IMG/VR virus record: IMGVR_UViG_3300023198_001063
Span: 1 to 41,266 of that record
Direction: 5' to 3' (one strand)
DNA length: 41,266 bases
DNA from: a virus
The first letter of the stretch is position 1. Each line of letters opens with the position of its first letter. Below the pieces are notes generated by a model. It was not told the origin of the DNA. It was given only the letters and a program-made list of their open reading frames with translations, and did no database searches. Position numbers and translations under genes: made by a program. Shown piece by piece: positions 9,001-38,213 of the stretch.

Positions 9001-9751
9001 TAAACATCTTAAAAGAGATTCTAACGGTACTCCTGTATCTTTAAGGGTAGACAGTAAAAATGAAGATTTTAAACTTAGTAATATATATAAAAAAAATAAA
9101 AAAGGTAAAATAATATTTAAAAAAGTAATTAAAATAAAAGACGGAGCTAATCAGTCTCTTATGTTACTTAATACTTTTACAAGTACTCCTACAGTTGCTT
9201 ATTACTATCCTATGGCTAAAGCAGGTAAAAGAGGATATTTAAATGAAACTATCAAGCTTGATTTAAAAACTAGAAAAGTATTTACTGAGGCGGCTAAAAA
9301 TTATGCTAAAAATGAACTTAAAGTATTGTCTTATAATGAATTTTTAAATACTTTAGAAGAGGATGTAAACATATCAGAAGAAGAATTTGAATACTTTAAA
9401 AAACATACAGATGAATATACTTCTCATTTGAGAAAAACTGTTGTAAAAGAAAATGTAATAGAATTTAACTTTGAAGGAGAAGTTATTCCTTGGCGTTCTG
9501 GTAGTGTTGAAAGTCTAAAAAACGTGTTAAAATCTTTAGGTCTTGAAGATTCCATCCATATGCAAGGCATAGAAGAAACAGAAAATAATTTATCTGCAGA
9601 AGGAAGAGAAAGATTAAACAAAATAAAAAAGAAAAACACTAAGAAAGCTAGAGAAAAAGTTGCACCTTCACAAAAAAAGATGACAACTGAGAAAGTTAAA
9701 GAAGTGTTAACCTCTAATCCTAAAGAAATAGAATTAGTAGATAACGGTTAA
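2..9751 (+). CDS. Giant virion RNA polymerase / metallopeptidase cargo protein (5' end outside window)
   Basis: The reading frame is already open at base 2 and reads through the ATG at 92 without a break, so the true start lies upstream and at least 3249 residues are present. Numbered from that ATG, the N-terminal ~350 residues look helical. An acidic linker lies near 440-480 and a Lys-rich linker near 905-935. A zincin motif HEAFH is at 1002-1006, with an ALADDFAEY segment about 35 residues later that could give the third zinc ligand. The RNA-polymerase-like core lies around 1900-2600: a KPFMYGK segment near 1969, FRIPT near 2272, and DFDID at 2311-2315, which fits the DxDxD metal-binding loop of the beta'-type double-psi barrel. 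An AASVDNAKDP segment follows near 2526. This matches the virion RNAP of crAss-like phages, which is ejected to transcribe early genes. The metallopeptidase may process cargo or host proteins (inference). The gene ends at an in-frame TAA beyond which the frame stays open. Confidence 0.8.
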   Translation, partial: ETIQKLSDELAKNPNAFKSIKASYENYVRNMGIQEDMDEAIDANDIFSFKNLEHDQFFSYVRSRAKADMLDMVVADLKAMTEMDLETFNNEFRVEGVTDFTEETKKDMIHKAFRQVKRIEEHSNTVDTLLDSSKINSRAGEAVKETLIHAASTMVNTELREKELIEKLSEITNLNEAEVIEISNRAKHSKYSKPLLALLKKGRTQELTKEETKERNKLGNRLGLKVAQLNELSSSEKALDYNALKDLEGTLKVEATKEGAKVGVDQEAFMEEAGIMLNQWKINNPTQATLKEKEALDLLLDIAKLKNRREEFIDLYNLLVTPKGAAAFEKADTAAKKVLRDKLAKEAKNEMDEILANAETEAELEAAREKAEQTSPEAVDAVNKKIDDKANTTRRNVPAYDKNNIIESLKSRYEDNPELFEKEKEELSSLLETHFQARVLPRNKKNKVIPVNTFISQIYEQSISSASDQIMPIIEEYYANVEAEILEEIESEETPSEEIEIVDDKEGSFSLVLGTQYKDTEYSNPLKSTGYQYKRDKKGNFTMEEEENPFNIDWDHVNTENLQKGDTIELEVDTEMLNSPYMQRVIKEGRLNEALPVSLVHYDKEGNRHVVGALAAYKTSRTAQGTKEANESLKTIRETILKDLGNKTGVVKTEFSTTVRYKETGRVHIDKNINSFKEAHAVSETLKEGEPLLFGIGRKRVDSIVIEVPNSAVTVEAVKGAVAGAVYAIKKNASGSYIPVRVMTRKVNEEELDEVGDLLEEFNAVEAGDNQLDEQIAIKEKINKIVFADIVPAKGKDGMFLVKTFINGKKGYTKALDIDGLLDFLEDKRAQVSIKEINTEDYNESIDGDKVKTSLSVGTTMHSVPFVMNAIEGKDTPKRRAKNSNTTKKQSDASAAFGQIEGELDPEELKSLAAKEHAEEWADGTKDKYSNKTSPADKAPIRRGTKGKKTKKSKKLGKPTIRHKIAVKDGKYKKWDKAKATAWMKKNLPNVPMHVVEDISNIADSGGKEAWGVFKNAATYIANNAGQGTAYHEAFHAVFHLYLNEKQREALLVEAQAQYGLQTEVELEEALADDFAEYVLSNTPKKGLIAGIKRLFKNLGRFIKQITGKNSSGINDLFKAINEGYYGRNSLGKLRKSIPTFSPVTRWKIPGMSPVEKRDRIDMLNTFVLDAIEDYAKANPTMTDVEIIKAVSLHELYLGKDEDSAYSQLESLLEEVEQDIAAFPDNAEYKYQEDQLTLALNNLAVGEEVDGTLIGGPLLKEAVNSLRKYGIKATLKHSIEEGEVQEGEGSEVDEDITESFEAWQVGRASLSTKDTTTYKVKNFLAKLDAVTLNEKGESVEELDTLGYPKRIAFDEAFNTLKNKLKEHTTIEEMVETLESMVKAKPYARKVIDLIRTDKEFKAAFFSTMATQQVEYLLLQKEDYSGKGGYVTRHNFIDSNRRNPHITLISEWNSLFILNNRNNKNQLSVAAKHNVTSAQKSIEGALRKIKNEGEVSNNHARTIASKLFKVGIAVTPVEIKSMFAEKKEDGIVINAEDVFASYFTGENGILNTVFPSILKGNNPFSISTQNETKALKPFVQAAIDNRDTLSEQALINVEGKQVFATVAPNHISSLVYKLKGKNYKNVIDFYKQDKFYKRHLWLKELSKSKENRNLFQRKVLDGYKEKGADTGVRYSKMSDFERKAAELNLWSNEGNSEWGYYVSPILADAPQMNLISFKKYTIEESLEHLYQVALQESERIKKVKEEQRTLPDNKLILNYHYSGENKTGKPGISAQQKADAKGLQFHYFEGLENIAISNKEKVKEVIAKNMAKEIEATTKQLKDLRILSETKGATYFESGVSSYFGYNNPAKFVEAYTYNSTLANIQMLQLFSGDSAFYANDEDLSKRHKQITNPGNILDVSEMDSATYKTIYFQDEIAKSKFYDEYKKILKNSIHSKAILAQYEDVNATDAQAYISLKRYRSIRRGMGTWGTKEDAAYADLEAGVATEEQLQLVAQPIKPFMYGKTLNNSTIVPVQNKNSEFLLLPQMVKGNKKLETVLEMFEQGISSVQFESAVKVGAHNIMPLESVFKEGVDIKKLVDKNFVELNNEDYRIQLAVPEHHVDTTITVGTQIRRLILANLAKKDYEYNIQGKKVKSQDVAKLFNELVSANVIEEYDELAELFKPGNREKLASLLEDEILERGLGQKYLDAIELNTKGEFEFPLYFPLSAKRNEALMTSLFKNRVTKQKIKGGSFVQLSDFGFSEELNVVFGERTDRDGKKQEYIKEMEAILPWWSKKYFPTLEDGQVDISKIPEELRELIGFRIPTEDKYSMPIIRVVGFSPKEAGGVAMLPADITKRAGTDFDIDKLYIMMPEFKVDLKFDALSKYLQQEFPTLTKKQLSLILETSEVNLEGTDVAIKQAIEDVYTSFQEIEYIVPTKKDKKARNNYMLEIMKGILQDPIHSEEIITPGNYIQLKDLKKELNILSGKASSKIKMHMPSSQLELFSRNMNGQELIGIFANHNVSHAMLQHSDVSFSVPMMLGGMTSKSLNRKETLNSTKNDRTLISNTLAQFLAASVDNAKDPVLTDLNINTFTADVAAALIRTGFDLRTIALFLNQPIIRKLSAEFLNTGGKEYMFDGIAEDLADELKQYGAEDRFTDKGHLIYINMQEDRFIGKGLEYQGLTEMLEAGENADANSQLAVLRLFESHRSNAKSLQNLVAATRADSKGFGPTIASAEVFRDKYDEAILDKKLQGVQDLFNSETYTMLSAFTEEGILKPMEKMKEYFPWLNIPFKAIKKEFKENKGFDLTEKEIEFINYSLLSYIGSGYEFFQSSQEEMENMLYSFPAEVMKEINNDPYLKNENIFTKNLDVVTEEADISEEDILANISNNVPLPVSLSRLEFNNTSKLSPEQKEEIEEHFEELLENPKYKEFAEKLIKYSFLNSGFVFTPSSFNHLVPISFFSNLTDSKGLKFQDFLKQEIDGRKNDIEAYNDFKLSFLRNNYDRYNFVYTLKDDIDYTDRKHLKRDSNGTPVSLRVDSKNEDFKLSNIYKKNKKGKIIFKKVIKIKDGANQSLMLLNTFTSTPTVAYYYPMAKAGKRGYLNETIKLDLKTRKVFTEAAKNYAKNELKVLSYNEFLNTLEEDVNISEEEFEYFKKHTDEYTSHLRKTVVKENVIEFNFEGEVIPWRSGSVESLKNVLKSLGLEDSIHMQGIEETENNLSAEGRERLNKIKKKNTKKAREKVAPSQKKMTTEKVKEVLTSNPKEIELVDNG

Positions 9752-17332: not shown

Positions 17333-17785
17333 TTATAATTCTAATGTATAAATTCTTTGTGTATAACTTCCATCTTCAGCATGTCTGTAATTACTAAATT
17401 CTAAAATACACTTAAAACCTAATTCCTTAATAACATTTTCAAAACAACCATTATAAAAATCTTTTCCTACAGTACATTGTATAACTCCTATTCCACTATA
17501 TTCCTCTATATTTCTATCTTTTATATCATTAATTACACTACCGACAAAGTCTTTTATATTTATTTCATCTGCAGTTATTTCATTTTCTTCTACTTGAAAG
17601 GGGCGATTTAAGTTACCTATGCTCCAACCATGCATAATTACTAAGCCACACCCTGTAAAAGAATCACTTACATTTAAAGAGTATACAGTACTTTCTGTTG
17701 AATAACTAAAAGTATCATTTATATGCCAACATTTATACCCTACTGCGTAAGAGTCTTCATCTATGTTTTCAATTGTTAATTCCAT
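17333..17785 (-). CDS. Hypothetical protein, 150 aa
   Basis: The family is not recognised with certainty. The ATG lies inside the end of the upstream gene, a 17-nt overlap that suggests translational coupling. The C-terminal third reads GIGVIQCTVGKDF, then VIKELGF and YTQRIYTLEL. This beta-alpha-beta-like pattern with a LGF turn is seen in some GNAT-related folds, but the acetyl-CoA loop is not evident, so I do not assign a function. Confidence 0.6.
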   Translation of the reverse strand: MELTIENIDEDSYAVGYKCWHINDTFSYSTESTVYSLNVSDSFTGCGLVIMHGWSIGNLNRPFQVEENEITADEINIKDFVGSVINDIKDRNIEEYSGIGVIQCTVGKDFYNGCFENVIKELGFKCILEFSNYRHAEDGSYTQRIYTLEL

Positions 17786-18224
17786 TATTATTAATTATTT
17801 GTTTGATATAAGCGTTTATAGCTTGTTGTTTAGTTGTATAATAAGTTCTATCAGGATTTTCATCGTGCATTTCTTCACTTTCTTCATCCCAACAAGACCA
17901 TATAATTTGTCCAACCTCTATAACCCAATAATCGTCACCTTCATTAAAAGGGTATTTATTATTTAAAGCTACCATAATAGCTGCATTTGCTAGTACGTGT
18001 TTAAGGTGATTTAAGCCTGTCTCAGGGTCTAATTCTTCCCCTTGCTTCCATGCCATTAAATGACGTAATAAAGCTGCCTCATATCTATCTATAGACACAT
18101 TTTTCCAGTCTCCAGGCGAATACTTTTCAGCCCCATAAGTCATTACTTCTCCTAAGCCTATTATTGATTCAGGAGGTATTAAGTCTAATCTTGGTTTATT
18201 TTTATCATATTTAAGTCCTTTCAT
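17769..18224 (-). CDS. dATP/dGTP diphosphohydrolase N-terminal domain protein (DUF5664-like, MazG-related)
   Basis: The opening KYDKNKPRLDLIPPESI, the VMTYGAEKYSPGDWKNV segment, the ALLRHLMAWKQGEELDPETGLNHLKH block and LANAAIM follow the conserved pattern of the phage family named dATP/dGTP diphosphohydrolase N-terminal (DUF5664). That family is related to MazG-type all-alpha NTP pyrophosphatases, in which acidic residues bind Mg2+. The expected role is hydrolysis of a (d)NTP to the monophosphate plus pyrophosphate to adjust the nucleotide pool; specificity cannot be read from sequence. The last ~60 residues, after YPFNEGDDYW, look like a lineage-specific extension. It ends in TGA, overlapping the next gene's ATG. 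The nearby ribonucleotide reductase fits a nucleotide-metabolism cluster. Confidence 0.75.
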   Translation of the reverse strand: MKGLKYDKNKPRLDLIPPESIIGLGEVMTYGAEKYSPGDWKNVSIDRYEAALLRHLMAWKQGEELDPETGLNHLKHVLANAAIMVALNNKYPFNEGDDYWVIEVGQIIWSCWDEESEEMHDENPDRTYYTTKQQAINAYIKQIINNNGINN

Positions 18225-22935: not shown

Positions 22936-23361
22936 TTATATTTTTATCCCTTTTAATTTATCTATATATAGTGGGTCTATGGCATATCTTTTACAATCTC
23001 CTTTACTCCCTTTATATATACATTCTAAAAAAGCATAATAATCACCTCCACGATACCATTTTTCTTGCCATTGTTTATAGTATATGATTCCTTCTTTCCA
23101 GTCATCAAATCTTTTATATGCTTTTTTATACCAAAACCCAAATATATTATTACTATCAAGAGAACAGTTATTACATTTTAACCACCCTGTTTCTAGTATA
23201 ATTTGTTTCATTACTATATCTGGATATTTTATTTCTTGTTTTATTAATTCTTTCTTTATAGTATTTATATTATATTCTTGAGAATATGCTGTACCTATTA
23301 AGGCTACTATAAGCATAAATACTAAAACTATTTCAAACCAATATTCCTTTATTTTTTTCAT
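22936..23361 (-). CDS. Glucosaminidase-type peptidoglycan hydrolase with N-terminal signal/anchor
   Basis: Residues 1-28 form a Sec-type signal or membrane anchor (EYWFEIVLVFMLIVALIGTAYSQ). The remainder is a compact FlgJ/GH73-like glucosaminidase domain: IVMKQIILETGWLKC carries the expected catalytic Glu, SNNIFGFWYKK matches the conserved N-x-x-G-F/K turn, and the segment around YKRFDDWKEGIIYYKQW is typical. It would cleave the glycan strand beta-1,4 to N-acetylglucosamine, for lysis or local wall remodelling. The protein is minimal at 141 aa. Its position inside the replication/recombination operon is unusual for a lysis gene. The start overlaps the upstream nuclease gene by 29 nt. Confidence 0.78.
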   Translation of the reverse strand: MKKIKEYWFEIVLVFMLIVALIGTAYSQEYNINTIKKELIKQEIKYPDIVMKQIILETGWLKCNNCSLDSNNIFGFWYKKAYKRFDDWKEGIIYYKQWQEKWYRGGDYYAFLECIYKGSKGDCKRYAIDPLYIDKLKGIKI

Positions 23362-26336: not shown

Positions 26337-27410
26337 TTATTTTAATAATCCTCCTACACTTCTTACATTCTCATAATAAGCATCACTCATTTCATCAGCT
26401 TTAGGCAATTCATGAAACATACCTATTTCTCCAATAAAACCATATCCATATCTTACATCATCAACTCCATAAGAGTTTTTTAACGCACTAATAGACCTAA
26501 ACCTATTATAACCTTTGTTATTAACAAATCTATCTATTTCATAATCCATATGGTCATATACCTTATATTTATAAGGATTAAATAACGCCAATGCAACATC
26601 ACAATCTTCATATAGATTACCAGAATCTTTAAAGTCGTCAGGGTCAGGAGTAATCTCCTTATTCCTTGCTCTTTGTGAGTCTGATAAACTCCTATTAAAT
26701 TGTGAAACTACTATAGGTGAAAATTTATAAAGGTCTCTAGCTATTCCAAAATATTCAGACATTTTGTCTATAGTTTCTTTTTTACTAAATCCTCTTTCTT
26801 TTTTCACTTTACCTATATGGTCTAAAACTACTAAAGTAATTTTCTTGTCATTATTAGCTTTATAAGTTCTATCAAACTCATTAATAATTAATTTACCATT
26901 ATCTTTAGCTGTTTGCTCTAATTGCTTAAAAACTCCTGTAGGGTTTTCAGCACCGTCTATTATTTTAACCACATCTGACATTTCGTCAAAATAGTCTAAT
27001 GTTTCTACTATTTTTTCATATATCTCTTGTGATACGTGGTTTTTTTTAACTCCCCATCCAAAAATAGTAGGTACATCCATTAGTATGCCATAATCTTGAA
27101 ATAATTTCATACATAACCATTTCCCTATTTTATAAGCACGAGGCCTCTCCATTGACCTATAGATTATCTCTAAGTCAATATCGGTTTCTCCTTTTTCTTT
27201 TTGTTCTTTAAACCATTTATAAGCTTGTAAAACATATGTATAATCAGTAAAACTAGTTTTCCCTGAGCCCGCACTTCCACCTAATAAGGTATACATGCCC
27301 TGATTTATATTTATATGCTCACCTAATTTTTTATGAGCTATAGGAATGCAAGTTACGTCTCCATTGATACCTCTATCAATTTCTTTCTTTACCTCATCTG
27401 AATAACTCAT
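26337..27410 (-). CDS. DnaB-like replicative helicase (SF4)
   Basis: A 357-aa RecA-fold hexameric helicase without the DnaB N-terminal primase-binding domain. GVNGD-like and IPIAHKKLGEHININQGMY lead into Walker A GGSAGSGKTSF; KKITLVVLDHIGKVKKERGF is Walker B; SPIVVSQFNRSLSD is the SQxNR motif; DFKDSGNLYEDCDVALAL is motif H4. It unwinds DNA ahead of the family A polymerase. Its start overlaps the stop of the preceding replication-associated gene by one base (TAATG type), so the two are coupled. Confidence 0.85.
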   Translation of the reverse strand: MSYSDEVKKEIDRGINGDVTCIPIAHKKLGEHININQGMYTLLGGSAGSGKTSFTDYTYVLQAYKWFKEQKEKGETDIDLEIIYRSMERPRAYKIGKWLCMKLFQDYGILMDVPTIFGWGVKKNHVSQEIYEKIVETLDYFDEMSDVVKIIDGAENPTGVFKQLEQTAKDNGKLIINEFDRTYKANNDKKITLVVLDHIGKVKKERGFSKKETIDKMSEYFGIARDLYKFSPIVVSQFNRSLSDSQRARNKEITPDPDDFKDSGNLYEDCDVALALFNPYKYKVYDHMDYEIDRFVNNKGYNRFRSISALKNSYGVDDVRYGYGFIGEIGMFHELPKADEMSDAYYENVRSVGGLLK

Positions 27411-28466: not shown

Positions 28467-29129
28467 TTATATTATTTTATGTTCTGATATTTTTTCTAGT
28501 TGATACCCATTATATGGCTGTATATGATAATAATTAGAGTATATTAAGGACTCTTTTTTTCTCATATTCCAAGAACCAAAAGTATCCATATCTAGATTTA
28601 CATCTGGATGTATTATACAAAGTTTATTACTCCCCATTAATCTATACATTTGATAATAAGAAGCATATTCTATACTTCTCATAGACTCTAATACACCTTC
28701 TTCACTTAAATAGTCTTTAATATAATGTATAGTATCTGAATACTCAGACTTAGCATCTACATAATAATCAAAAGTTCCATTATGAGATACTATTGCTTTA
28801 TCTGTAATAACTGCTTCATCTACTAAAATCTCTTTAAAATTATCAGAAACTACATAAGGATGACAATTTTCTACATTGGTTTCACCTGCTGTTGCATACC
28901 TCATATGAACCATAAGCTCGTCTCCTTTTTGTATTTTCATTTTTTCTATTACATCTAAAGCTATTTCATAATATTTATAACCTTTAGAAAGAATTATATT
29001 TGAACTACCTTCTTTTTTTACAGCAAAACCAGTTCCATGACAATTATGTAAAGACGCAGTTTTAGCTGCATCTTTTAATTCTGCAAAGTCTAATTTTACT
29101 CCTGCTCTTTTAGCAATTATTATACACAT
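28467..29129 (-). CDS. Class II glutamine amidotransferase (Ntn hydrolase)
   Basis: The protein begins MCIIIAKRAG, so removal of Met exposes Cys as the N-terminal nucleophile. Supporting motifs are HNCHGTGFAV, ELMVHMRYATAG followed by NCHPYVVSDN (glutamine-binding Arg/His region) and IVSHNGTFDYY (oxyanion-hole Asn-Gly). Such domains hydrolyse glutamine and pass ammonia to a partner synthetase. At 220 aa there is no synthetase domain, so the partner should be another protein. The best candidate is the amidoligase just upstream, whose end overlaps this start by 10 nt. Confidence 0.85.
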   Translation of the reverse strand: MCIIIAKRAGVKLDFAELKDAAKTASLHNCHGTGFAVKKEGSSNIILSKGYKYYEIALDVIEKMKIQKGDELMVHMRYATAGETNVENCHPYVVSDNFKEILVDEAVITDKAIVSHNGTFDYYVDAKSEYSDTIHYIKDYLSEEGVLESMRSIEYASYYQMYRLMGSNKLCIIHPDVNLDMDTFGSWNMRKKESLIYSNYYHIQPYNGYQLEKISEHKII

Positions 29130-30568
29130 ATTATTTCTTTTTTAGTTTTAAGTAATACTTGTCTATCACTAGATTCCAATAAATCAGGTTCATTATTAAA
29201 TAATTTTTGCCTCATATCAATATAAGTTAATAAAGGTTTTACATTTCTCTTATAAGTAGCTTGTATAATTTCCTCTAAAGTAATTATTTTTTTAGATAAT
29301 ATATCAATTTCATGATTTTCTACATAATTTACAAAGGCCATACATATAAGAGTAAAGTTTTTAATCTTAGTATAATTTAATGTACCAGAATGAAATCTGA
29401 ACTCTATAGTATCTGCATTTTTATTATAACCATGTTTAGGATGCGGAGTATTTCTAACATTAAAATTACAAGGAATTAAATTTACCCATTTATATCTAAA
29501 ATTATCTTCATCGTCTATATCGTTATATTTACCACAATATCTACCATAATGATGATTATTTTTTTTGTTATAAGTAGCAGTTGGTTTTTTACCGTAAGTC
29601 ATTGCTTTAAATAATTCTTCATAAGCAATTTCTACTCCATAACTAGCTCCATATTTCTTAATAATATCTTCTAAACCAAGTTTTATTACATCGCCACAAT
29701 AAGAATTACCTCTTCTAGTTTTAGCAACTATAGAAAACATAGATTCTTCTATTTTCTCACTTAATATATGTGCATAGACAGAAAAAGCTTTATTAAAATT
29801 AGCTCCTCCTATATGTACATGCATACCACAAGTTTTATCTACTTTATTTTGTCTATTAAGAACAGTAGTAGTACGATATAACTGATTAAAACCAGAATCT
29901 CCTTTAAGTATTCCTGTAACATATTCAGAACCTTCTACAGAACCATCCCTTAAAGAAGATAAATTAAGTTTATTAATAAAATAATCTTGAAGATTTACAC
30001 AGCCCTTAGAGGTTTCTAATTCTACCCCAAAAGAATATTTAAGCCCTTCTGATGCTACATAAGTTCTAGAAGTTACTCCTAATTCATTTTTAGTTTTTAA
30101 CTCGCTTCTAAGAGACTCGCCTTTTCTTTTAGCTTCTCTTTCAAGATATAAAGAATTAATTTGCATCCCTATATTATTTTTACGTTTTTTATTTTTAAAA
30201 TCGTAAGCTCTCTCTTTATTACTTTTTAACAAATACCAATGCCCTCGATTACTTAAGTTAAAAAGGCTAATAATTTCTTTATCAATAAAATAAAGTCTTG
30301 CTCCAAATTCTGTTTCGCTTATATGAGGTACAAAATTTTGCCAATCAAAATTCTTCAAATAAATACTTAAAAATAAATTATTATTAAGAGTACTAAGCAC
30401 ATTTTCGTATATCTTATAAACATCAGTAAAATATTTTGTAATAAACTTACCTTTTTGTTTATAGATAATACCATTAACCTTTGATATATGATAAACATTA
30501 CCATCTTCAGCAATAACATTCTTGTTTTTATCTATATTAAGTATTTTTTCTATTATCTCTTTTTCCAT
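29120..30568 (-). CDS. Amidoligase of the COOH-NH2 ligase superfamily (Amidoligase_2 type)
   Basis: A 482-aa protein whose second half has the amidoligase signature: KYSFGVELETS at about 178-187, SSLRDGSVEGSEYVTGIL near 204-220, KTCGMHVHIGGANF near 245-258, and IEFRFHSGTLNY late in the domain. These glutamine-synthetase-fold enzymes form an amide between a carboxylate and an amine using ATP. The first ~165 residues are a separate Lys/Asn-rich domain with no known match, possibly recognising the substrate. Neighbours on both sides are class II amidotransferases, which could feed ammonia. Iyer and colleagues (2009) predicted such phage ligases to modify peptides or make novel metabolites; I know of no experimental substrate. 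Confidence 0.82.
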   Translation of the reverse strand: MEKEIIEKILNIDKNKNVIAEDGNVYHISKVNGIIYKQKGKFITKYFTDVYKIYENVLSTLNNNLFLSIYLKNFDWQNFVPHISETEFGARLYFIDKEIISLFNLSNRGHWYLLKSNKERAYDFKNKKRKNNIGMQINSLYLEREAKRKGESLRSELKTKNELGVTSRTYVASEGLKYSFGVELETSKGCVNLQDYFINKLNLSSLRDGSVEGSEYVTGILKGDSGFNQLYRTTTVLNRQNKVDKTCGMHVHIGGANFNKAFSVYAHILSEKIEESMFSIVAKTRRGNSYCGDVIKLGLEDIIKKYGASYGVEIAYEELFKAMTYGKKPTATYNKKNNHHYGRYCGKYNDIDDEDNFRYKWVNLIPCNFNVRNTPHPKHGYNKNADTIEFRFHSGTLNYTKIKNFTLICMAFVNYVENHEIDILSKKIITLEEIIQATYKRNVKPLLTYIDMRQKLFNNEPDLLESSDRQVLLKTKKEIICV

Positions 30569-30569
30569 A

Positions 30570-31826
30570 TTACTTTTCTTCTATTTCAGTTAATGAACCT
30601 ATAAATTTACTTACATTAATCATAGCGTTGTCTAGACCTTCTATATCTTTTTCTGTAACTCCTTTATCTTCAAGAGCTATACTTAACTCAACTCTAGCTT
30701 CATCTAATTTATAATATAATTCAGCCATATAATCCATAACATCTTCTAATGCTATTGTATTTTCTTCTGAATCTGTAGTTGTAGATGAATCATAATACCT
30801 ATAATCACTTACTAGTACTTCTTCAAAACCTCCATCACTCATATATCGTACATGTACAGTTATTTCTCTTTCAGGGTCATATACCACTTCTTCTGATATA
30901 CATTTTTTATCCCCCATATATGAATCAACAGTTACTATTACAGTACCATCAGTAAAAGTAGTAGTAGTTTTACCATGTGCTGAAAATATAGTTTTAGTTT
31001 CTCTACAAACTAATTTAATACTTTCAGGCAATCTTTTTATTTCGTTCTTAATAGGACTAGTTCTAGATATAGTTAATGTGTCTGTTATTTTGCCGTCTGT
31101 AATACTATATAATTTATCTTCTTCAAAAGATTTTATATCATCACAGCCAATAGCTTTTAAAGAAGCCTCAATAGATGAAATATACCTACCTATTTTGTTG
31201 CCTTTTTTAATAATACCAGAAAACAAAGGTCTGTACTCATCATGGTACGCAAATAAAGAGCCTTTTTTCTTAAGTTCAGTATTAGTCCATAATAAAGCTG
31301 CTGCTCCTTCATAGTGGTTAAGCACTTTAAAGTTTTCATTTTTATCAATAGAAGCTGGAAATATTTTACTATCTATATCAATAGTTTTTTCATCCATTTC
31401 ATACTCTCTTAATAAACCTTTAGTATTAGTTAAAGTTCCATTATGTGCTCCTACCCATTTTCCAAAAAGAAAAGGATGAGCATTAGCTGCAAAAGTACGT
31501 CCAGTACCACTAGTTGCTGCTCTTGTATGTCCTATAAATAAATTAGAAGGAGTTTCTAAATTTACTGGTAATAAATTTAAAGACACTTTTCCACTTTTTT
31601 TATGTATTCTATTTTCAGGATTAATATTTACTACATGATTATAATAACCACAAGAATCTTCTCCTCTTGCTTGATTATACATAAATAATACAGCAAGTTT
31701 ATCTTTATCTGCAACATATTCTCCTGAAAAACCTAATAAACCACACCCTAAAACTGTAGAACGCTTATTTGTTATTAATGTTTTAATAAATTGCACTAAT
31801 AATAGTGCTATAATAAAATTTATCAT
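30570..31826 (-). CDS. Class II glutamine amidotransferase-like protein with N-terminal extension
   Basis: A 418-aa protein containing GCGLLGFSGEYV, then ARGEDSCGYY, LFIGHTRAATSG, NAHPFLFGKWVGAHNGTL and EGAAALLW. This matches the GlmS/asparagine-synthetase-type glutaminase domain. Unlike its neighbour, the nucleophile Cys is not residue 2: the only ATG start gives 27 extra residues with a hydrophobic stretch (INFIIALLLVQFI) before TVLGC. Activity would need propeptide removal, as in PurF-type precursors, or a non-standard start. The C-terminal half is beta-rich followed by an acidic helix and lacks a synthetase domain. The start region also contains a perfect hairpin. It lies 1 nt from the amidoligase gene. 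Confidence 0.78.
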   Translation of the reverse strand: MINFIIALLLVQFIKTLITNKRSTVLGCGLLGFSGEYVADKDKLAVLFMYNQARGEDSCGYYNHVVNINPENRIHKKSGKVSLNLLPVNLETPSNLFIGHTRAATSGTGRTFAANAHPFLFGKWVGAHNGTLTNTKGLLREYEMDEKTIDIDSKIFPASIDKNENFKVLNHYEGAAALLWTNTELKKKGSLFAYHDEYRPLFSGIIKKGNKIGRYISSIEASLKAIGCDDIKSFEEDKLYSITDGKITDTLTISRTSPIKNEIKRLPESIKLVCRETKTIFSAHGKTTTTFTDGTVIVTVDSYMGDKKCISEEVVYDPEREITVHVRYMSDGGFEEVLVSDYRYYDSSTTTDSEENTIALEDVMDYMAELYYKLDEARVELSIALEDKGVTEKDIEGLDNAMINVSKFIGSLTEIEEK

Positions 31827-31848
31827 TTGTTTGTTTTATTTTTAATAA

Positions 31849-32208
31849 TTACCAATTACCTGTTTCTATTATAGGTAATTCATCTGATTTTTTGTTAAAT
31901 ATATAAATACTTGCTTTACCGAATTCCGTATCTATTTCCTTTTTAAGATAAAAAGAGTGTTGAGGAGCTTCTTTATGATAACCCTCTAAACTTTCTATTT
32001 CTCTATCTTCTTTTTCTGTTACTTCGTATATCTCTAAATGAATAGCTGTATCACCATTTTCAACTACTCCTGGAAAGCCTCCTAAACTATACATAGTATA
32101 TCTAGGCCCTGTTATAGTTGTACCTACATACTTAGCTCTTCCTAAAAACATATCATGGTTACTATAACCTTTTTTTAAACTGCCATATACAGCGCATAAT
32201 TTTTTCAT
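31849..32208 (-). CDS. Gamma-glutamylcyclotransferase-like protein (GGCT/AIG2 fold)
   Basis: A 119-aa protein with the family's opening motif AVYGSLKKGYSNH, the FPGVV turn, and IESLEGYHKEAP as the usual E-G-Y segment with an acidic residue in the active cavity. GGCT-like enzymes release gamma-glutamyl groups from amines or peptides as 5-oxoproline. In this cluster it would trim or recycle gamma-glutamyl amides made by the ligases (inference). It lies 4 nt after the preceding gene and 22 nt before the extended amidotransferase. Confidence 0.82.
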   Translation of the reverse strand: MKKLCAVYGSLKKGYSNHDMFLGRAKYVGTTITGPRYTMYSLGGFPGVVENGDTAIHLEIYEVTEKEDREIESLEGYHKEAPQHSFYLKKEIDTEFGKASIYIFNKKSDELPIIETGNW

Positions 32209-32212
32209 AATA

Positions 32213-32632
32213 TTATTTTTTATTTAGTTCTTCTTTTATAGCACAATAAATATTAAAACCTTTTGCCCATGTATTTTTTATACTCTCCTCAGAACGTCTC
32301 TCAGGAGTTCTTATAACTTTATATGTCCAATGGTCTGTACCATTATTTTCATATACTATTTTACCTAGAGTAGGACAATATAATGATTTTATTTCCTCAT
32401 TATCTAACATATCTAATAAACTATAAATAACTAAGTCTTTTTTATACTTATACTTTATAATATACTTCATAATATAAGTTAAAGTAACTCCTGTATAAAA
32501 AGGAATAGAATAACCATTTATATCTTTTCTAGTATCATTGTTATCTAATATAGGTAATTTCCAACTATCAGAAGTATTTTTACAAAAATAATTATTAAGT
32601 AATTTTTGTATTTTTTTTATTTTAGTTTCCAT
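32213..32632 (-). CDS. Hypothetical protein within the amidoligase island, 139 aa
   Basis: The family is not recognised. It is a basic, Tyr/Lys-rich protein with IMKYIIKYKYKKDLVIYSLL in the middle and RTPERRSEESIKNTWAKGF near the end. Its ATG overlaps the ATP-grasp gene by 11 nt, so it is translated together with it. It could be an accessory or substrate-binding subunit of the ligase. Confidence 0.55.
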   Translation of the reverse strand: METKIKKIQKLLNNYFCKNTSDSWKLPILDNNDTRKDINGYSIPFYTGVTLTYIMKYIIKYKYKKDLVIYSLLDMLDNEEIKSLYCPTLGKIVYENNGTDHWTYKVIRTPERRSEESIKNTWAKGFNIYCAIKEELNKK

Positions 32633-33425
32633 ATTTATTTTCTAACATTAAAGGTAAATACTTAATATATGCTTCCATAGTTCCTTCACCAAAAGAAGGT
32701 GCACTATTAATTTCTATTATAATAAATTTAGGATTATTTCTTTCTTCGCCTTCTTCATCAGTAGCACTTTGTACTTTGACATCACAAGCTCCAAAATCAA
32801 GCCCTACAGCTTTCATTGCTTTTACACATTCTTGAACAATGTCCTCCCAATTACAAGGTTTATCAAACTTTTCATTTGTCTCTATATACCATACAGAGTT
32901 AGAATCATTTCTAAACCACCTTTCACTAGGAGGAGTATCACTCTTTAACATCTTTCTACAAGTATAGAAACAGCCGTTAGCATTAACATGTAAACGATAT
33001 TCACGAGAAAAGTTATAAAACCGTTCATAGATATAACCATCAAAATTATTATTTCTTATAAATTCATTTAGTTGGTTTTGATTATCTATTTTAACCATAC
33101 CTTGACCTCTAGACCCATATTTTTTCTTAGCTATAATAGGAAAAGGAATTTCTTCTTCTTCTAATAAAGTTTGCACATTGCTCCACCAAAAAGCTGTCTT
33201 AACATTCTTAGCAGTAAAACAGTCTTTCATAAGTTTCTTATTAGAACTATTACTAATAGCTTCAGGAGAATTAAGAAACTTATCACTTTTATTCCATATA
33301 GTTTTACTACCAAATCTTACACAAGCTAGTAAATGGGCTGGTACAAATATTTTACCCCTTATTCCATTATGAGAAGGATGCCTAGAAAATATTCTCAGAC
33401 TCCTCTTTAACCACTTTTTTTTCAT
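32622..33425 (-). CDS. ATP-grasp ligase
   Basis: A 267-aa protein with recognisable ATP-grasp segments: FPIIAKKKYGSRGQGMVKI (Lys plus Gly-rich lid), DGYIYERFYNFSREYRLHV (the E-R-F and central strand), LDFGACDVKVQS (Asp), and KFIIIEINSAPSF (the E-x-N Mg2+ ligands). ATP-grasp enzymes activate a carboxylate as acyl-phosphate and join it to an amine, as in RimK and glutathione synthetase. The N-terminal domain is basic. It overlaps both neighbours (44 nt upstream, 11 nt downstream). It is the third ATP-dependent amide-forming enzyme in the island. Confidence 0.85.
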   Translation of the reverse strand: MKKKWLKRSLRIFSRHPSHNGIRGKIFVPAHLLACVRFGSKTIWNKSDKFLNSPEAISNSSNKKLMKDCFTAKNVKTAFWWSNVQTLLEEEEIPFPIIAKKKYGSRGQGMVKIDNQNQLNEFIRNNNFDGYIYERFYNFSREYRLHVNANGCFYTCRKMLKSDTPPSERWFRNDSNSVWYIETNEKFDKPCNWEDIVQECVKAMKAVGLDFGACDVKVQSATDEEGEERNNPKFIIIEINSAPSFGEGTMEAYIKYLPLMLENKYGN

Positions 33426-34230
33426 CTGTTGTTTTTAATTTAATAATTTTACACTGTTTTTTATTAACGTACATTATACCGTTATCTATTACCAAGCCTA
33501 AAATTGTTTTAGATGCTAATTTTACTACTTCTTTAACTATGTAATTTTTACCTATAATAAGTTGCCTGCCCTTTTTAAACTTTACTTCACTTCCTATTCC
33601 TATTTTTTTAGGTTTATTAGCTTCTTTTAAAAGGATAGCCATTTCCATTGGAATAAATAAATTTTTATCAAAGTTCTTTATATTTGCATAAGCACCATTA
33701 TCAAAAGATTTAGAAACTGTAACAAAGGCTTTATCTTCTAATTGCATATAAAGTTTATGTAAACTTCTTGCAAGCACAGAAACTCTACCAATATAGTAAT
33801 AATCTCCGTCTATATATCTTTGAATAGTTTCTAAAGCAGGTAAAGTTATTCTATCGTTAGTATATAATCTTTGAGAAGTTACTGAATAATTTGAAGTTAA
33901 TATATCAATAACTTTATCATCTTGTCCTCCTCCATTATAAGAAATAACAATACTATTTCCTACTTGTTCTTTAACAGTCCAATTACTAGCTTCATATGAT
34001 ATCTTGTCTCCTTTACGAAATATTCTTTTTATATTAATATTTTTTTCTTTAAAATGATGTTTAAAAAATTTTATAGGTGTTCCATCCTCTTTACTATGTT
34101 CTTCAAAACCAAAAACATTATTACCTATTAAACTAATAGTATATTGATTTCCTTTTACTAGTATGTCTCCTTCATAATTATAAAGGCTTGTACAAATTAT
34201 TTTTTGACCTATTATAAAATTATATGCCAT
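33382..34230 (-). CDS. Protein with three SH3-like barrel repeats in the amidoligase island
   Basis: I start at the ATG of MAYNFIIGQK, which has an A-rich leader after the preceding stop (282 aa); the frame is open for another 11 codons upstream. Three similar beta-segments are visible: FIIGQKIICTSLYNYEGDI near the N-terminus, IFRKGDKISYEASNWTVKE near 95, and IGIGSEVKFKKGRQLIIGKN near 225, each with a G-D/E-x-I/V turn typical of small SH3-like barrels. It is basic overall. No enzyme motif is seen; it may bind peptide, cell wall or nucleic acid. Confidence 0.55.
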   Translation of the reverse strand: MAYNFIIGQKIICTSLYNYEGDILVKGNQYTISLIGNNVFGFEEHSKEDGTPIKFFKHHFKEKNINIKRIFRKGDKISYEASNWTVKEQVGNSIVISYNGGGQDDKVIDILTSNYSVTSQRLYTNDRITLPALETIQRYIDGDYYYIGRVSVLARSLHKLYMQLEDKAFVTVSKSFDNGAYANIKNFDKNLFIPMEMAILLKEANKPKKIGIGSEVKFKKGRQLIIGKNYIVKEVVKLASKTILGLVIDNGIMYVNKKQCKIIKLKTTDEKKVVKEESENIF

Positions 34231-34255
34231 ATTATTATATTTTTTTAAATTTAAC

Positions 34256-35077
34256 TTAATCAATTTCTATAAGTTTAGTTATTTTTGTAGGTACTTTAAT
34301 ATAAGGAATTTTAAATTTAATAATTAATTTATTAGCTAACTCTTCGTTATATTCATTAATACATTTTTGAATATCTTTAGCATCTTTTTCACTTATTTTT
34401 ACTTTATCATTAACTTTATTTATAGCTAATTGAGTATTATTAAATGCCCATGTAATAAGTTCTTCAGAAGTAATCCAAAAATTAGATAAAGTTCTATATT
34501 CACATCCATACTTTTTAATTCTAAAAGCACCTGCTTTGCCATACAATTTTCTTCTGTCCCTGTCTTCATCCATAAGGATGCTAGGAACACCTAAAAATAA
34601 GTCCATCATTTTAATGAGTTTCTCTGTTATAGGAATTCTAGGTGTTTCATAACCTATATGTATATGACCAGCACTGACTCTTAAGTTAGTACTTGCAAAA
34701 GGAGCTTCATTGGGTTTTCTTGCCCATACATCTAAATCAGGTTCACAGCCAAATTCTTTAGCTTGTATAGATTGTAAATACTTATTATCAAAAGTAGTTG
34801 ATGCTACTATATAAGGCTCAAGATTATTAGGAATATTTTTTTCTATATAATTTATACATGTATTAATATCTCTAACAAAACTCTCAGCATCTACTACAGG
34901 ATTAAATCCAAATTCTACTGCCACATTATCTTCTTGTACAGTATGTCCTAATTTACTAATAGGTTTTGGGTTTCTTTTAGTACCTCCTATTAATCCTTCA
35001 GAAGAAACACTTTCTCCTGTTATCTTGTCTTTTAAAAAGAATTCTGGGTCTGCCCCAATTGTTACATTTTTTATCAT
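34256..35077 (-). CDS. Phage-type COOH-NH2 ligase (type 2)
   Basis: A 273-aa protein with the hallmark of the phage COOH-NH2 ligase family: TIGADPEFFLKDKITGESV, SSEGLIGGTKRNPKPI, LGHTVQEDNVAVEFGFNP, then AGHIHIGYE and GCEYRTLSNFW. The acidic, His and Arg residues in these motifs are the ATP/Mg2+ and substrate ligands of the glutamine-synthetase-like fold. The enzyme is predicted to form amide bonds, with unknown acceptor. It is distinct from the other amidoligase in the window, so the phage carries two ligase subfamilies. It lies 2 nt downstream of the class I amidotransferase. Confidence 0.85.
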   Translation of the reverse strand: MIKNVTIGADPEFFLKDKITGESVSSEGLIGGTKRNPKPISKLGHTVQEDNVAVEFGFNPVVDAESFVRDINTCINYIEKNIPNNLEPYIVASTTFDNKYLQSIQAKEFGCEPDLDVWARKPNEAPFASTNLRVSAGHIHIGYETPRIPITEKLIKMMDLFLGVPSILMDEDRDRRKLYGKAGAFRIKKYGCEYRTLSNFWITSEELITWAFNNTQLAINKVNDKVKISEKDAKDIQKCINEYNEELANKLIIKFKIPYIKVPTKITKLIEID

Positions 35078-35079
35078 AA

Positions 35080-35820
35080 CTAAACTGTTTCTTTTATTTT
35101 TGTAAAATCTGTTATAAAAAATTGTTCTAATACTTCTTTAATTTTTTTAACTCCATCATGTGTCTTGTCTAAATATTCAGGATGCCCTTGTATAGCTATT
35201 GCATCAATTTTTGTATATACAACTACCTCTGGTTCTACAAAAGTTTTAGGTATTTCTATAGGTTCATCGTCCCCATTTAAATATACATCACTTTGTTTAG
35301 CTAAAGAATATGCACACATAATATAATCTTCTTCAGGTAAATTAAACGGATATTGCATTTGATGATGAGTACTTGTTATGTCACTATCATCATCTGATTT
35401 CCATTTAATTTCGTGAGTACCTCCTATACCATGTCCTGTACAATGTTGTATTAATTTACCTCCTGCCATTACACAAGTTAGTTGACTTCCTCTACAAATA
35501 CCTATAATTTTTTTATTTAAAGCAATAGCTTGTTCATAAATTGCTATTTCTTCTTTATCTCTACCAGGATTAATTGAAGTATATTTACCTACAGCTTCCC
35601 CATAATAAGAAGGGTCAACATCCGCACCTCCTGTAAACATAATTAAATCAGCGTCTTCAACATTATTAACGTGATTCATTTCAGAAAGCCAATTTGCATA
35701 ATTTATATCTCCTCCTACTACATAAATATTTTTATTTTGTAAAGGAAAATAATTATTATATAAATTCATATTTTTTTGTTTATACTTTTTATTTTTATTT
35801 CTTTTTGATTTTCTACTCAT
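35080..35820 (-). CDS. Class I glutamine amidotransferase-fold hydrolase (peptidase C26 type)
   Basis: I start at MSRKSKRNKNK (35820), 10 nt after the polymerase stop; a longer frame would overlap the polymerase gene. After a very basic tail of about 20 residues come DLIMFTGGADVDPSYYGE, KKIIGICRGSQLTCVMAGG (nucleophile Cys in the elbow) and AIAIQGHPEYLD (His-Glu of the triad). This matches gamma-glutamyl-gamma-aminobutyrate hydrolase/peptidase C26, which cleaves gamma-glutamyl amides, more than a synthetase-bound glutaminase. With the GGCT-like protein it gives the island two predicted gamma-glutamyl-cleaving activities. Confidence 0.85.
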   Translation of the reverse strand: MSRKSKRNKNKKYKQKNMNLYNNYFPLQNKNIYVVGGDINYANWLSEMNHVNNVEDADLIMFTGGADVDPSYYGEAVGKYTSINPGRDKEEIAIYEQAIALNKKIIGICRGSQLTCVMAGGKLIQHCTGHGIGGTHEIKWKSDDDSDITSTHHQMQYPFNLPEEDYIMCAYSLAKQSDVYLNGDDEPIEIPKTFVEPEVVVYTKIDAIAIQGHPEYLDKTHDGVKKIKEVLEQFFITDFTKIKETV

Positions 35821-35830
35821 ATTATTATTA

Positions 35831-37795
35831 TTAATGTGCCCAAAATTCAGAAACAACTGCTTCTGCAACCATTGGAATTGTTTTACAAAATACTTTTCCT
35901 GCGTCTTCCATACATTTTGTTAATAACTTTGAAGCTATTTCTATATATTCTTCACTTGTTTCTATTACTATTTCATCATGTACAAGATTTACTATCCATA
36001 CTTTATCATATAACTTTTTTTCTTGCAATTCTTTTTTTAACATAATAGCTGCAAGTTTAGTCATAGACCCACTTGTTCCTTGTATAGGAGCATTTCTTGA
36101 TAATCTAGATATTTTTCCTTTTAATTTATAATAGTCACTCCAAGGGAAATCCTTTTTAATAGCAGGATTTATATTAGACCTATCTAATTTTTTCTGAAGA
36201 GCTTTATGTTCTTCAAAGTCTTTAGTAAATAATTTCCTTTTTGTTATAGAATCTATTAAAATATAACCATTTTTCATAGTTTCTTTTAATTTTCTATCAA
36301 AATAGTCTTTTTTACCTGGAAAAGCTTCTTCTAAAGCGTCAATAAATACTTGTGCATCTTTTTCAGACTTGACTTGCAAATCATCTTTAACAGTAAATGC
36401 AGAGCCACCATAATCTAATTTAAGATTAAGCACTTTTCCTATTTGTCTTCTAGGGTCTCCTTTAGTTATTTTAACAGCTTTACCTTCTATTACAGAAAAT
36501 AATCTACTACTTACCATAGAATGAGTATCGCCATCTCCATTTAAATAAAATTCTACTAAAGCAGGGTCTTTACATACGTCAGCAGTTACACGAGGCTCTT
36601 GTTGGCTATAATCAGCTATAATAAGAGTATTAGCCCCTGCTCCTCTAAAACACTCTCTAAAAGGTTGAGAACCTGTTTCATCTTCCCTTGCAGGTATATT
36701 CTGTAAATTAGGATGATTACTACTTATTCTTCCTGTAGAAACTATTTGCCAAAAACTTGAATGTACTCTTCCTGTAACAGGATTAATATGTTCTAAAAAT
36801 TCTAAACCATAAGTACTTACTTCTTTAGCTGTTGCTTTATAATTAAAATATAATTTTAAAAAAGGAAATTTACTTTTATATTTTCCTATAGCTTTCTCTT
36901 CACAAGTGTCTTTATCTTTCCCTGTTCTTCTATCTCTTATAACAGTATTTATCCCTAAATATTTAAGAAAAGGTATTACTTGTTTAGGAGAATCCCAATT
37001 TATATTACATTTAAATCCTTCAGAAAATAAATCATATTGTGAATTAATAAATTCAGTAATATTATTATCTAATATATAAGAATCTAAACTTTTTCTAGCT
37101 TTTTTTAAATTATCTTTATTATTAACTTCTAATTTAGACCACATAGTTTTATCTAAATAAAAACCATTATATTCTATATCAGCTAATACACTAACAAATT
37201 TATTTTCAAGCCTTAAACAAGGTTCTAAATCATATTTTTCAATCTCTTTAAGCTGTTTTTCTCTAATATCTAATAAATATTCTACATCTTTTGCTCCATA
37301 TACAATTTGTTTATGTGTAAAAGGCTGTCCTTTCATTCCTACAAACTGATTACGAATACTTTTATCTAATTCTATATTTAAATATTTATTAGTAATAAAA
37401 CCTAAATTAACTTCATTATTATCAGGCCCTGCAGTAAGTATCATTTCTGCTAATTGAGTATCCCATATATTAACTAGCATTATATTATGCATTCTAAAGA
37501 ACTTATAATCAAAAGATGCATTCTGCAATACTTTAATAATATTAGGATTTTCTAATATTTCTTTTAAAGGGCTTATATCTGTTGTTCTAACATCTATTAC
37601 AAATTGAGTGTCTTTATCTCCTATTTGTAACATAATCATTACATTTTTATGATTAAATAAGCCACTAGTTTCAGTATCTAAGCCTAATATTTTTTTATCT
37701 TTACAATATTCAACTACTTCCCCAATTTTTGAATAAACTATTTGGTCCAAAAAGTTCTTTTCCTTGTCCAAAGCAACGGGCTCTTTCGTTTTCAT
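35831..37795 (-). CDS. Family A DNA polymerase with 3'-5' exonuclease
   Basis: A 654-aa replicative polymerase. The DEDDy proofreading domain is intact: KILGLDTETSGLF near 40, LQNASFDYKFF, and YGAKDVEYL. The polymerase domain has motif A IADYSQQEPRV near 392, motif B RRQIGKVLNLKLDYGGSAF, and motif C VNLVHDEIVIE near 606. There is no 5'-3' exonuclease domain. I use the Met of MKTKEPVAL at 37795. Even so, the gene overlaps the end of the LytTR-like gene by 86 nt, far more than other overlaps here. Its product should act with the DnaB-like helicase, primase and SSB downstream in the operon. Confidence 0.92.
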   Translation of the reverse strand: MKTKEPVALDKEKNFLDQIVYSKIGEVVEYCKDKKILGLDTETSGLFNHKNVMIMLQIGDKDTQFVIDVRTTDISPLKEILENPNIIKVLQNASFDYKFFRMHNIMLVNIWDTQLAEMILTAGPDNNEVNLGFITNKYLNIELDKSIRNQFVGMKGQPFTHKQIVYGAKDVEYLLDIREKQLKEIEKYDLEPCLRLENKFVSVLADIEYNGFYLDKTMWSKLEVNNKDNLKKARKSLDSYILDNNITEFINSQYDLFSEGFKCNINWDSPKQVIPFLKYLGINTVIRDRRTGKDKDTCEEKAIGKYKSKFPFLKLYFNYKATAKEVSTYGLEFLEHINPVTGRVHSSFWQIVSTGRISSNHPNLQNIPAREDETGSQPFRECFRGAGANTLIIADYSQQEPRVTADVCKDPALVEFYLNGDGDTHSMVSSRLFSVIEGKAVKITKGDPRRQIGKVLNLKLDYGGSAFTVKDDLQVKSEKDAQVFIDALEEAFPGKKDYFDRKLKETMKNGYILIDSITKRKLFTKDFEEHKALQKKLDRSNINPAIKKDFPWSDYYKLKGKISRLSRNAPIQGTSGSMTKLAAIMLKKELQEKKLYDKVWIVNLVHDEIVIETSEEYIEIASKLLTKCMEDAGKVFCKTIPMVAEAVVSEFWAH

Positions 37796-38213
37796 AGTCA
37801 GACTCTTCTGCCCTGTCACATATTTTATCATATTTTTCTTTTATAAGAATTATTAACTTTTGATAATTATATAAATTTTTTTTTATTTTATCATCTATAG
37901 GCATAAGATGGTCTCCTATTTGTATGTATTTAGTATTAATAGTGTCTACATATCTCATATTAATTAATACATTTTGACCTATTAATAACAAATCATCTTT
38001 AATTTCTATATCCTCAATAATTTCAGTAATAGTTATATTTTTTATTTTATAATAATAATTCCAAAAATCTCTAACAATAACTCCATTGCCATTTGATTGT
38101 ATAAATACTATATCTTTTATATCAGAATTATTTTTATCAAAAACATTTTCTAATTCTTCTTTATAACATATATAAGGAACACATTCTTCGTATAAATCTC
38201 TTTTTTTTTCCAT
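37710..38213 (-). CDS. LytTR-like DNA-binding regulator
   Basis: A 167-aa protein whose residues ~33-125 follow the LytTR domain: DIVFIQSNGNGVIVRDF (first strands, I-x-x-I-x-S pattern), ITEIIEDIEIKDDLLLIGQ (helix and strand), NVLINMRYVDTINTKYIQIG (the sequence-reading I/V-N-x-x-x-I segment) and LMPIDDKIKKNLYN (final helix). There is no receiver domain, so it would be a one-domain phage regulator. It may control this operon, of which it is the first gene after a hairpin. The Arg/Gly-rich last ~25 residues lie in the 86-nt overlap with the polymerase gene and look less like a folded domain. Confidence 0.6.
   Translation of the reverse strand: MEKKRDLYEECVPYICYKEELENVFDKNNSDIKDIVFIQSNGNGVIVRDFWNYYYKIKNITITEIIEDIEIKDDLLLIGQNVLINMRYVDTINTKYIQIGDHLMPIDDKIKKNLYNYQKLIILIKEKYDKICDRAEESDYENERARCFGQGKELFGPNSLFKNWGSS

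Follow-up and report, generated by a model that had tools for sequence, protein, structure and literature searches.

A crAss-like variant of the phage amidoligase cassette with extra amidotransferases and a hydrophobic leader ahead of a catalytic cysteine

The virus record IMGVR_UViG_3300023198_001063 of IMG/VR (41,266 bases, hereafter the window, which represents only part of a phage genome) carries at positions 28467-35820 an island of amide-bond enzymes between the genes for a family A DNA polymerase and a DnaB-like helicase. This island belongs to the known phage amidoligase cassette of the phiEco32/LUZ24/RIO-1 type and is a crAss-like variant of it: five core enzyme types are encoded on one strand among replication genes, they are co-inherited, and their catalytic residues are intact. 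The system itself is already known in kind; the crAss-like variant with extra amidotransferases is new, and so is the second feature reported here, a hydrophobic leader preceding the catalytic cysteine of one of the class II amidotransferases. The cassette is spread over unrelated phages (crAss-like, LUZ24-like, phiEco32-like and RIO-1-like podoviruses, and a cyanophage), and its product, a matter of conjecture since 2009, is demonstrated nowhere in the literature that we found. All-or-none inheritance of the genes points to one product worth finding, the leader gives a concrete hint of where the chemistry could take place, and the question can be put to the test in carriers that grow in culture (phi14:2, LUZ24 and phiEco32-like phages from the BASEL collection). 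A first-pass annotation of the window had rightly linked the island to the gene associations predicted by Iyer and colleagues (2009); its interpretation stands in part, having overlooked that the cassette had already been named and that the leader was there.

The island consists of nine minus-strand genes with intergenic spacings of -44 to +22 bases. Downstream of the polymerase, the order of transcription is Peptidase_C26, COOH-NH2 ligase, a protein without assigned family, ATP-grasp ligase, a 139-residue protein, gamma-glutamyl cyclotransferase (GGCT), an extended class II amidotransferase (GAT2a), Amidoligase_2 and a second class II amidotransferase (GAT2b). These nine open reading frames (ORFs) correspond to seven recognisable enzymes and two proteins without assigned family. 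The genes listed by the first-pass annotation were all found at the stated place; its title speaks of seven genes. The enzymes include three ATP-dependent ligases (COOH-NH2 ligase, ATP-grasp and Amidoligase_2), one class I and two class II glutamine amidotransferases, and GGCT. Families were assigned by Pfam and PHROG profile matches, and catalytic positions were read from alignments of all the relatives found for each family (33 to 166 relatives each); the window has the expected residue at every catalytic position checked.

The class I glutamine amidotransferase/Peptidase C26 (35080..35820; PF07722, 2e-18; phrog_7218, 2e-37) has an ATG at 35820, and its ORF may begin at 35868; numbered from the latter, its triad is C125-H229-E231, kept in 95-97% of 145 relatives. 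The phiEco32-like COOH-NH2 ligase (34256..35077; PF14395, 3e-14; phrog_3815, 3e-75), of the glutamate-cysteine-ligase type fold family, gave no match in a sequence search of the PDB; its D10, E12, E55, H138, E193 and R195 are 99-100% conserved, and H140 88%. The RimK-like ATP-grasp ligase (32622..33425; phrog_2599, 4e-35) is 50% identical to g038 of phage phi14:2, with E142, K158 and E238 conserved in 100% of its relatives. Amidoligase_2 (29120..30568; PF12224, 2e-11; phrog_2443, 3e-18) bears an N-terminal extension of ~165 residues, and its E183, E185, H250, H252, E389 and R391 are 100% conserved (~155 relatives). GAT2a (30570..31826; PF13522, 7e-8; phrog_4736, 2e-21) is divided into a leader (residues 1-27), an N-terminal nucleophile (Ntn) glutaminase domain (C28 to ~260) and a C-terminal region that is beta-rich and helical; C28, N129, G130 and D152 are 100% conserved. 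Its AlphaFold model has a per-residue confidence (pLDDT) mostly above 90 across residues 31-250 and matches PurF/GlmS in Foldseek (3e-12), and the Cys, Arg, Asn-Gly and Asp of this PurF/GlmS-type glutaminase fold are all present. GAT2b (28467..29129) starts with Met-Cys; its profile match is weak (PF13230, 1e-4, just below the cut-off), and C2, R77, N117 and D132 are 100% conserved (33 relatives; catalytic positions overall 93-100%).

GGCT (31849..32208; GGACT/AIG2 family; PF06094, 3e-17; phrog_2520, 7e-23) has Y8 and E75 conserved in 98% and 88% of its relatives. One related phage (locus L004, 6936-7358) carries a homologue in which YGSL is replaced by FCEL and LEGY by LKGW; having lost its YGS motif and catalytic Glu, this copy may be inactive. 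The remaining two genes have no Pfam or PHROG match. The product of 33382..34263 probably contains several SH3/KOW/Tudor-like barrels; its model is of medium confidence (pLDDT 69), the KOW/Tudor-type matches in Foldseek are weak with low template modelling (TM) scores, and clear homologues were found in two close contigs only. Several barrels, as in the triple SH3-like protein of the first-pass annotation, are therefore plausible, the number three being unproven. The 139-residue protein (32213..32632) has homologues also away from the cassette in crAss-like genomes, and for this reason it is probably not part of the cassette.

Gene co-occurrence was scored in two sets of loci, which are separate contigs, some of them close kin, and in which a cassette more than ~10 kb from the anchor would escape the count. 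Anchored on the ATP-grasp profile in IMG/VR (50 loci, at least 6 kb of flank on each side), the loci contained GAT2a in 50/50 cases, Amidoligase_2 in 50/50, COOH-NH2 ligase in 49/50, the class I amidotransferase in 43/50, GGCT in 42/50 and GAT2b in 18/50, always on the same strand. The primase profile provided an anchor independent of cassette content: among 29 loci with sufficient flank, 19 had the four core genes, one had three (perhaps cut by the locus end) and nine had none. Since the core genes co-occur in both sets of loci, we conclude that the cassette is inherited as a unit and that its co-occurrence is all-or-none, which is the pattern that a single pathway would give. The first-pass annotation had proposed a full make-and-trim pathway for gamma-glutamyl or isopeptide bonds, to be judged by ligase active sites and by co-conservation in relatives. 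Both were found, and a pathway-like unit of amide-forming and gamma-glutamyl-cleaving enzymes is retained here; the gamma-glutamyl or isopeptide product, taken from family names, was overstated. The GGCT gene adjoins primase directly in 33 of 68 scored loci. Accessory genes were examined as a hint to the substrate, and the commonest of them encode replication-type or unidentified proteins; the ATP-grasp profile run against cellular genome contigs found a single contig from a metagenome-assembled genome and no cellular operon hinting at a substrate.

The GAT2a leader, MINFIIALLLVQFIKTLITNKRSTVLG (31746..31826, minus strand), ends immediately before the catalytic Cys28, from which the sequence continues as CGLLGF. 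Class II amidotransferases need their catalytic cysteine at the N-terminus, and Cys28, behind 27 residues, becomes N-terminal only upon removal of the leader. In the alignment, leaders of 25 to 30 residues precede the cysteine in the window, in related loci L002, L003 and L004, and in phi14:2, and the GAT2a proteins of LUZ24, crAssphage cr108_1 and the Leptolyngbya phage begin with Met-Cys. The leader was found in 42 of 139 non-redundant GAT2a homologues (97 being without it) and is almost limited to the crAss-like cassette type. As a trait it changes 25 times on a FastTree tree, with at least 13 changes forced by well-supported branches, the exact number being soft. Among the cassette and replication proteins examined, GAT2a alone has a hydrophobic stretch at the N-terminus, and the long GAT2a proteins showed no convincing fusion to extra Pfam domains.

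As far as can be told from the sequence, the leader is really translated. Its start ATG lies at a median of 10 bases past the upstream stop, and its ratio of nonsynonymous to synonymous substitution rates (dN/dS) is ~0.4-0.6, compared with 0.4-0.6 for the enzyme domain (window and two closest relatives, short and noisy). A mis-called start was ruled out as the source of the leader by the nearness of the ATG to the upstream stop and by the conservation of the leader codons. A lipoprotein signal was also rejected, the cysteine being the catalytic Ntn residue aligned with the Met-Cys starts of other homologues, and basic residues lying between the hydrophobic stretch and the cysteine. Nor is the leader generally encoded apart, as a small ORF, where GAT2a lacks it: a hydrophobic ORF lies upstream in only 5 of 96 such homologues. 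The position of the basic residues, after the hydrophobic stretch, bears on topology: by the positive-inside rule, basic residues so placed leave the following domain cytosolic, and therefore the enzyme domain is predicted to lie in the cytosol. Taken as such, the leader suggests a membrane-tethered GAT2a precursor. To our knowledge, a membrane-tethered, self-activating class II amidotransferase would be a form known nowhere else.

The reading that we prefer, and hold tentatively, is that the cassette amidates an envelope precursor close to the membrane, lipid II for instance, or edits its gamma-glutamyl groups. Glutamine would be the source of ammonia, set free by the amidotransferases of both classes; the three ligases, one of ATP-grasp and two of glutamate-cysteine-ligase type, would activate carboxylates with ATP and form amide or gamma-glutamyl bonds, by which ammonia or an amino acid would be joined to these carboxylates; and GGCT, perhaps together with the class I enzyme, would remove or reset gamma-glutamyl groups, the chemistry of each step being that expected from family membership. 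Lipid II would offer a stem peptide with free carboxylates on D-Glu and diaminopimelate. The leader would hold GAT2a at the membrane until it is cut before Cys28, and the product would be an envelope precursor altered on the inner face of the host membrane in the early phase of infection, with a changed host cell wall as the outcome. The inner face is proposed because of the GAT2a leader and because lipid-linked wall precursors are located there. The stronger form, in which the cassette would be a membrane-associated assembly remodelling lipid-linked envelope precursors, with GAT2a an inactive anchored precursor cut (by itself or otherwise) before the cysteine, we regard as doubtful. Membrane tethering, leader cleavage, an envelope substrate and a benefit such as superinfection blocking are put forward as hypotheses only.

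Several observations weigh against an envelope precursor as the substrate. The leader occurs in only ~30% of the homologues and was gained or lost at least 13 times on the tree, and the GAT2a proteins of LUZ24 and phiEco32 are without it; a trait so patchy and so repeatedly changed indicates that a membrane location is not needed for the pathway. The isolate hosts listed with a COOH-NH2 ligase match are all diderm bacteria, which speaks for the envelope reading, but this restriction may stem from sampling and from the descent of the phages. The constant position of the cassette among replication genes is explained by early expression and is not specific to an envelope function, and no substrate or product is demonstrated in the literature that we found.

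Protein tagging is a doubtful alternative as well. Carboxylates on a protein of the host or of the phage (for instance a replication, ribosomal or RNA polymerase protein) would receive amino acids or amides through the two amidoligases and the RimK-like ATP-grasp enzyme, and GGCT and the class I enzyme would clear mis-added gamma-glutamyl groups. It is consistent with the PHROG of the ATP-grasp ligase, named ribosomal protein S6 glutaminyl transferase, with the position of the cassette among replication genes in unrelated phages, and with the absence of a small precursor peptide gene from an island whose genes abut or overlap. However, a co-conserved target protein was not found, the two proteins without assigned family in the window being absent from most relatives, and the GGCT family usually acts on small gamma-glutamyl amines.

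GGCT and Peptidase C26 enzymes act on gamma-glutamyl small molecules, which would fit a soluble product of use to the phage inside the cell, a gamma-glutamyl or amidated peptide or amine acting, for instance, against host defence or on redox or nitrogen balance; we consider such a product unlikely. Ligases of these types, when linked in operons, often act in turn in building peptide metabolites (PMC4431377), and a glutaredoxin gene lies near the RIO-1 cassette, but the accessory-gene clusters, most of them unidentified, included no recognisable transporter, carrier protein or resistance gene. A precursor peptide gene of the ribosomally synthesised and post-translationally modified peptide (RiPP) or graspetide kind has no room in the island, and none was recognised among accessory ORFs of at least 50 residues.

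DNA hypermodification, by which an amide- or amino-acid-linked base would be placed in the phage DNA, is disfavoured and very unlikely, although a sparse or lineage-specific modification may still occur. In several phage groups that are not related to each other, the cassette has genes for primase, helicase or polymerase as its neighbours, and the phiEco32-like phages, which carry it, strongly resist restriction-modification without a known DNA-modification pathway (PMC11990801). Against this, the DNA of the cassette-bearing LUZ24-like phage U17 was cut by 11 of 16 enzymes (PMC11945000), that of three other LUZ24-like phages by EcoRI, HindIII, Sau3A and AluI (PMC3634792), and the window proteins scanned, which represent part of the genome, included no recognisable base hydroxylase, thymidylate-synthase-like hydroxymethylase or DNA kinase. 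Three further papers on cassette phages contained no usable restriction digests. The doubt that the first-pass annotation had cast on a DNA-base substrate thus agrees with the digests of the LUZ24-like phages and is left less secure by the resistance of the phiEco32-like ones, whose cause is unexplained. A dATP/dGTP pyrophosphohydrolase-like protein (17769-18224, minus strand; PF18909, phrog_801) is encoded in the window, and near the cassette in many relatives too; enzymes of this kind occur in unusual-nucleotide pathways. Finally, that the genes mainly recycle amide nitrogen of the host into nucleotides, without a product of their own, is very unlikely: three glutaminase-type domains and a cyclotransferase do share an operon with replication genes, and recycling during infection is mentioned as a possible benefit in PMC5498523, but three different ATP-dependent ligases kept or lost together indicate a specific product.

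Assignment of the phage to the crAss-like phages (Crassvirales) is supported by its giant RNA polymerase and by crAss-type gene content in the window. The polymerase, of 3219 residues (92-9751, plus strand), is read away from the replication operon and matches the phi14:2 RNA polymerase 6VR4 (E 1e-58), and homologues of the window primase, helicase and DNA polymerase are held by phi14:2 or cr108_1. A megablast search of the island against phage records returned no match. The operon extends past the island on either side, and its flanks are those named in the first-pass annotation, the family A DNA polymerase PolA (35831..37831, minus strand; PF00476, 8e-63) and the DnaB-like helicase (26337..27410, minus strand; phrog_19, 1e-7; phrog_15558, 2e-25). 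Within the replication operon there is also a PF01832 glucosaminidase, a peptidoglycan hydrolase (22936-23361, minus strand), with an N-terminal hydrophobic signal-like stretch; it is kept in close relatives and is likely an endolysin.

Among cellular systems, LtsA/AsnB-type enzymes amidate peptidoglycan precursors with ammonia from an amidotransferase, and the cassette may work in a similar way. GAT2a has the glutaminase fold and catalytic residues of PurF and GlmS. PurF of B. subtilis has a short propeptide ahead of its catalytic cysteine; GAT2a differs from PurF/GlmS in being without a synthase domain and in the hydrophobic, membrane-anchor-like nature of its leader. MurT/GatD is an established case of peptidoglycan amidation by an amidotransferase-ligase pair, the ATP-dependent enzyme amidating peptidoglycan precursors with ammonia that the amidotransferase provides (PMC3267633); the cassette may work like it. 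It is not the same system, the ligase having a Mur-ligase type fold there, whereas the cassette has glutamate-cysteine-ligase and ATP-grasp types.

The closest comparison is with the cassettes of other phages. A seven-gene 'peptidoglycan modification cassette' is described in RIO1-like podoviruses in PMC5498523, which cites Iyer (2009) and Hardies (2013) and gives it as conserved in phiEco32, 7-11, PA11, tf, MR299-2, LUZ24, PaP3 and CW02. The label 'putative peptidoglycan modification module' is used in PMC11945000, and the superinfection idea is repeated in PMC10580990; in all three papers the peptidoglycan role is a hypothesis and a product is reported in none. Named carriers of the phage amidoligase cassette are phiEco32, LUZ24, PaP3, PA11, RIO-1 and PSA-HP1. 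The same five core enzyme types lie beside replication genes in phiEco32 (phi32_77 to 86), LUZ24 (gp16-22) and RIO-1, and a cassette of this kind is found near primase/helicase genes in phage O4 as well. Leptolyngbya phage Lbo-JY46 (locus L007, 8811-17304) has all of the core cassette together with three genes resembling class I amidotransferases, adjoining genes for nicotinate phosphoribosyltransferase and phosphoribosyl pyrophosphate (PRPP) synthetase.

In crAss-like phages the genes had been annotated singly in public records. Cellulophaga phage phi14:2 (g037-g041) has the same core set and the leader, its GAT2a being g040; in the part of its genome that was read, it has neither the class I amidotransferase nor a second one of class II. 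CrAssphage cr108_1 (gp28-gp34, Steigviridae), its core set likewise annotated singly, is without the leader, and the part read yielded no homologue of GGCT. The window shares phrog_3815 (COOH-NH2 ligase), phrog_2599, phrog_4736 and phrog_2520 with both LUZ24 and phiEco32, whereas its Amidoligase_2 is of another subfamily (PHROG 2443, compared with 7631 and 7469 in LUZ24/phiEco32). The class I amidotransferase of the window, an extra gene relative to the phiEco32/LUZ24 type, is also present in phage O4. Compared with the phiEco32, LUZ24 and RIO-1 cassettes, the window adds the second class II amidotransferase and the GAT2a leader, and its genes stand in a different order.

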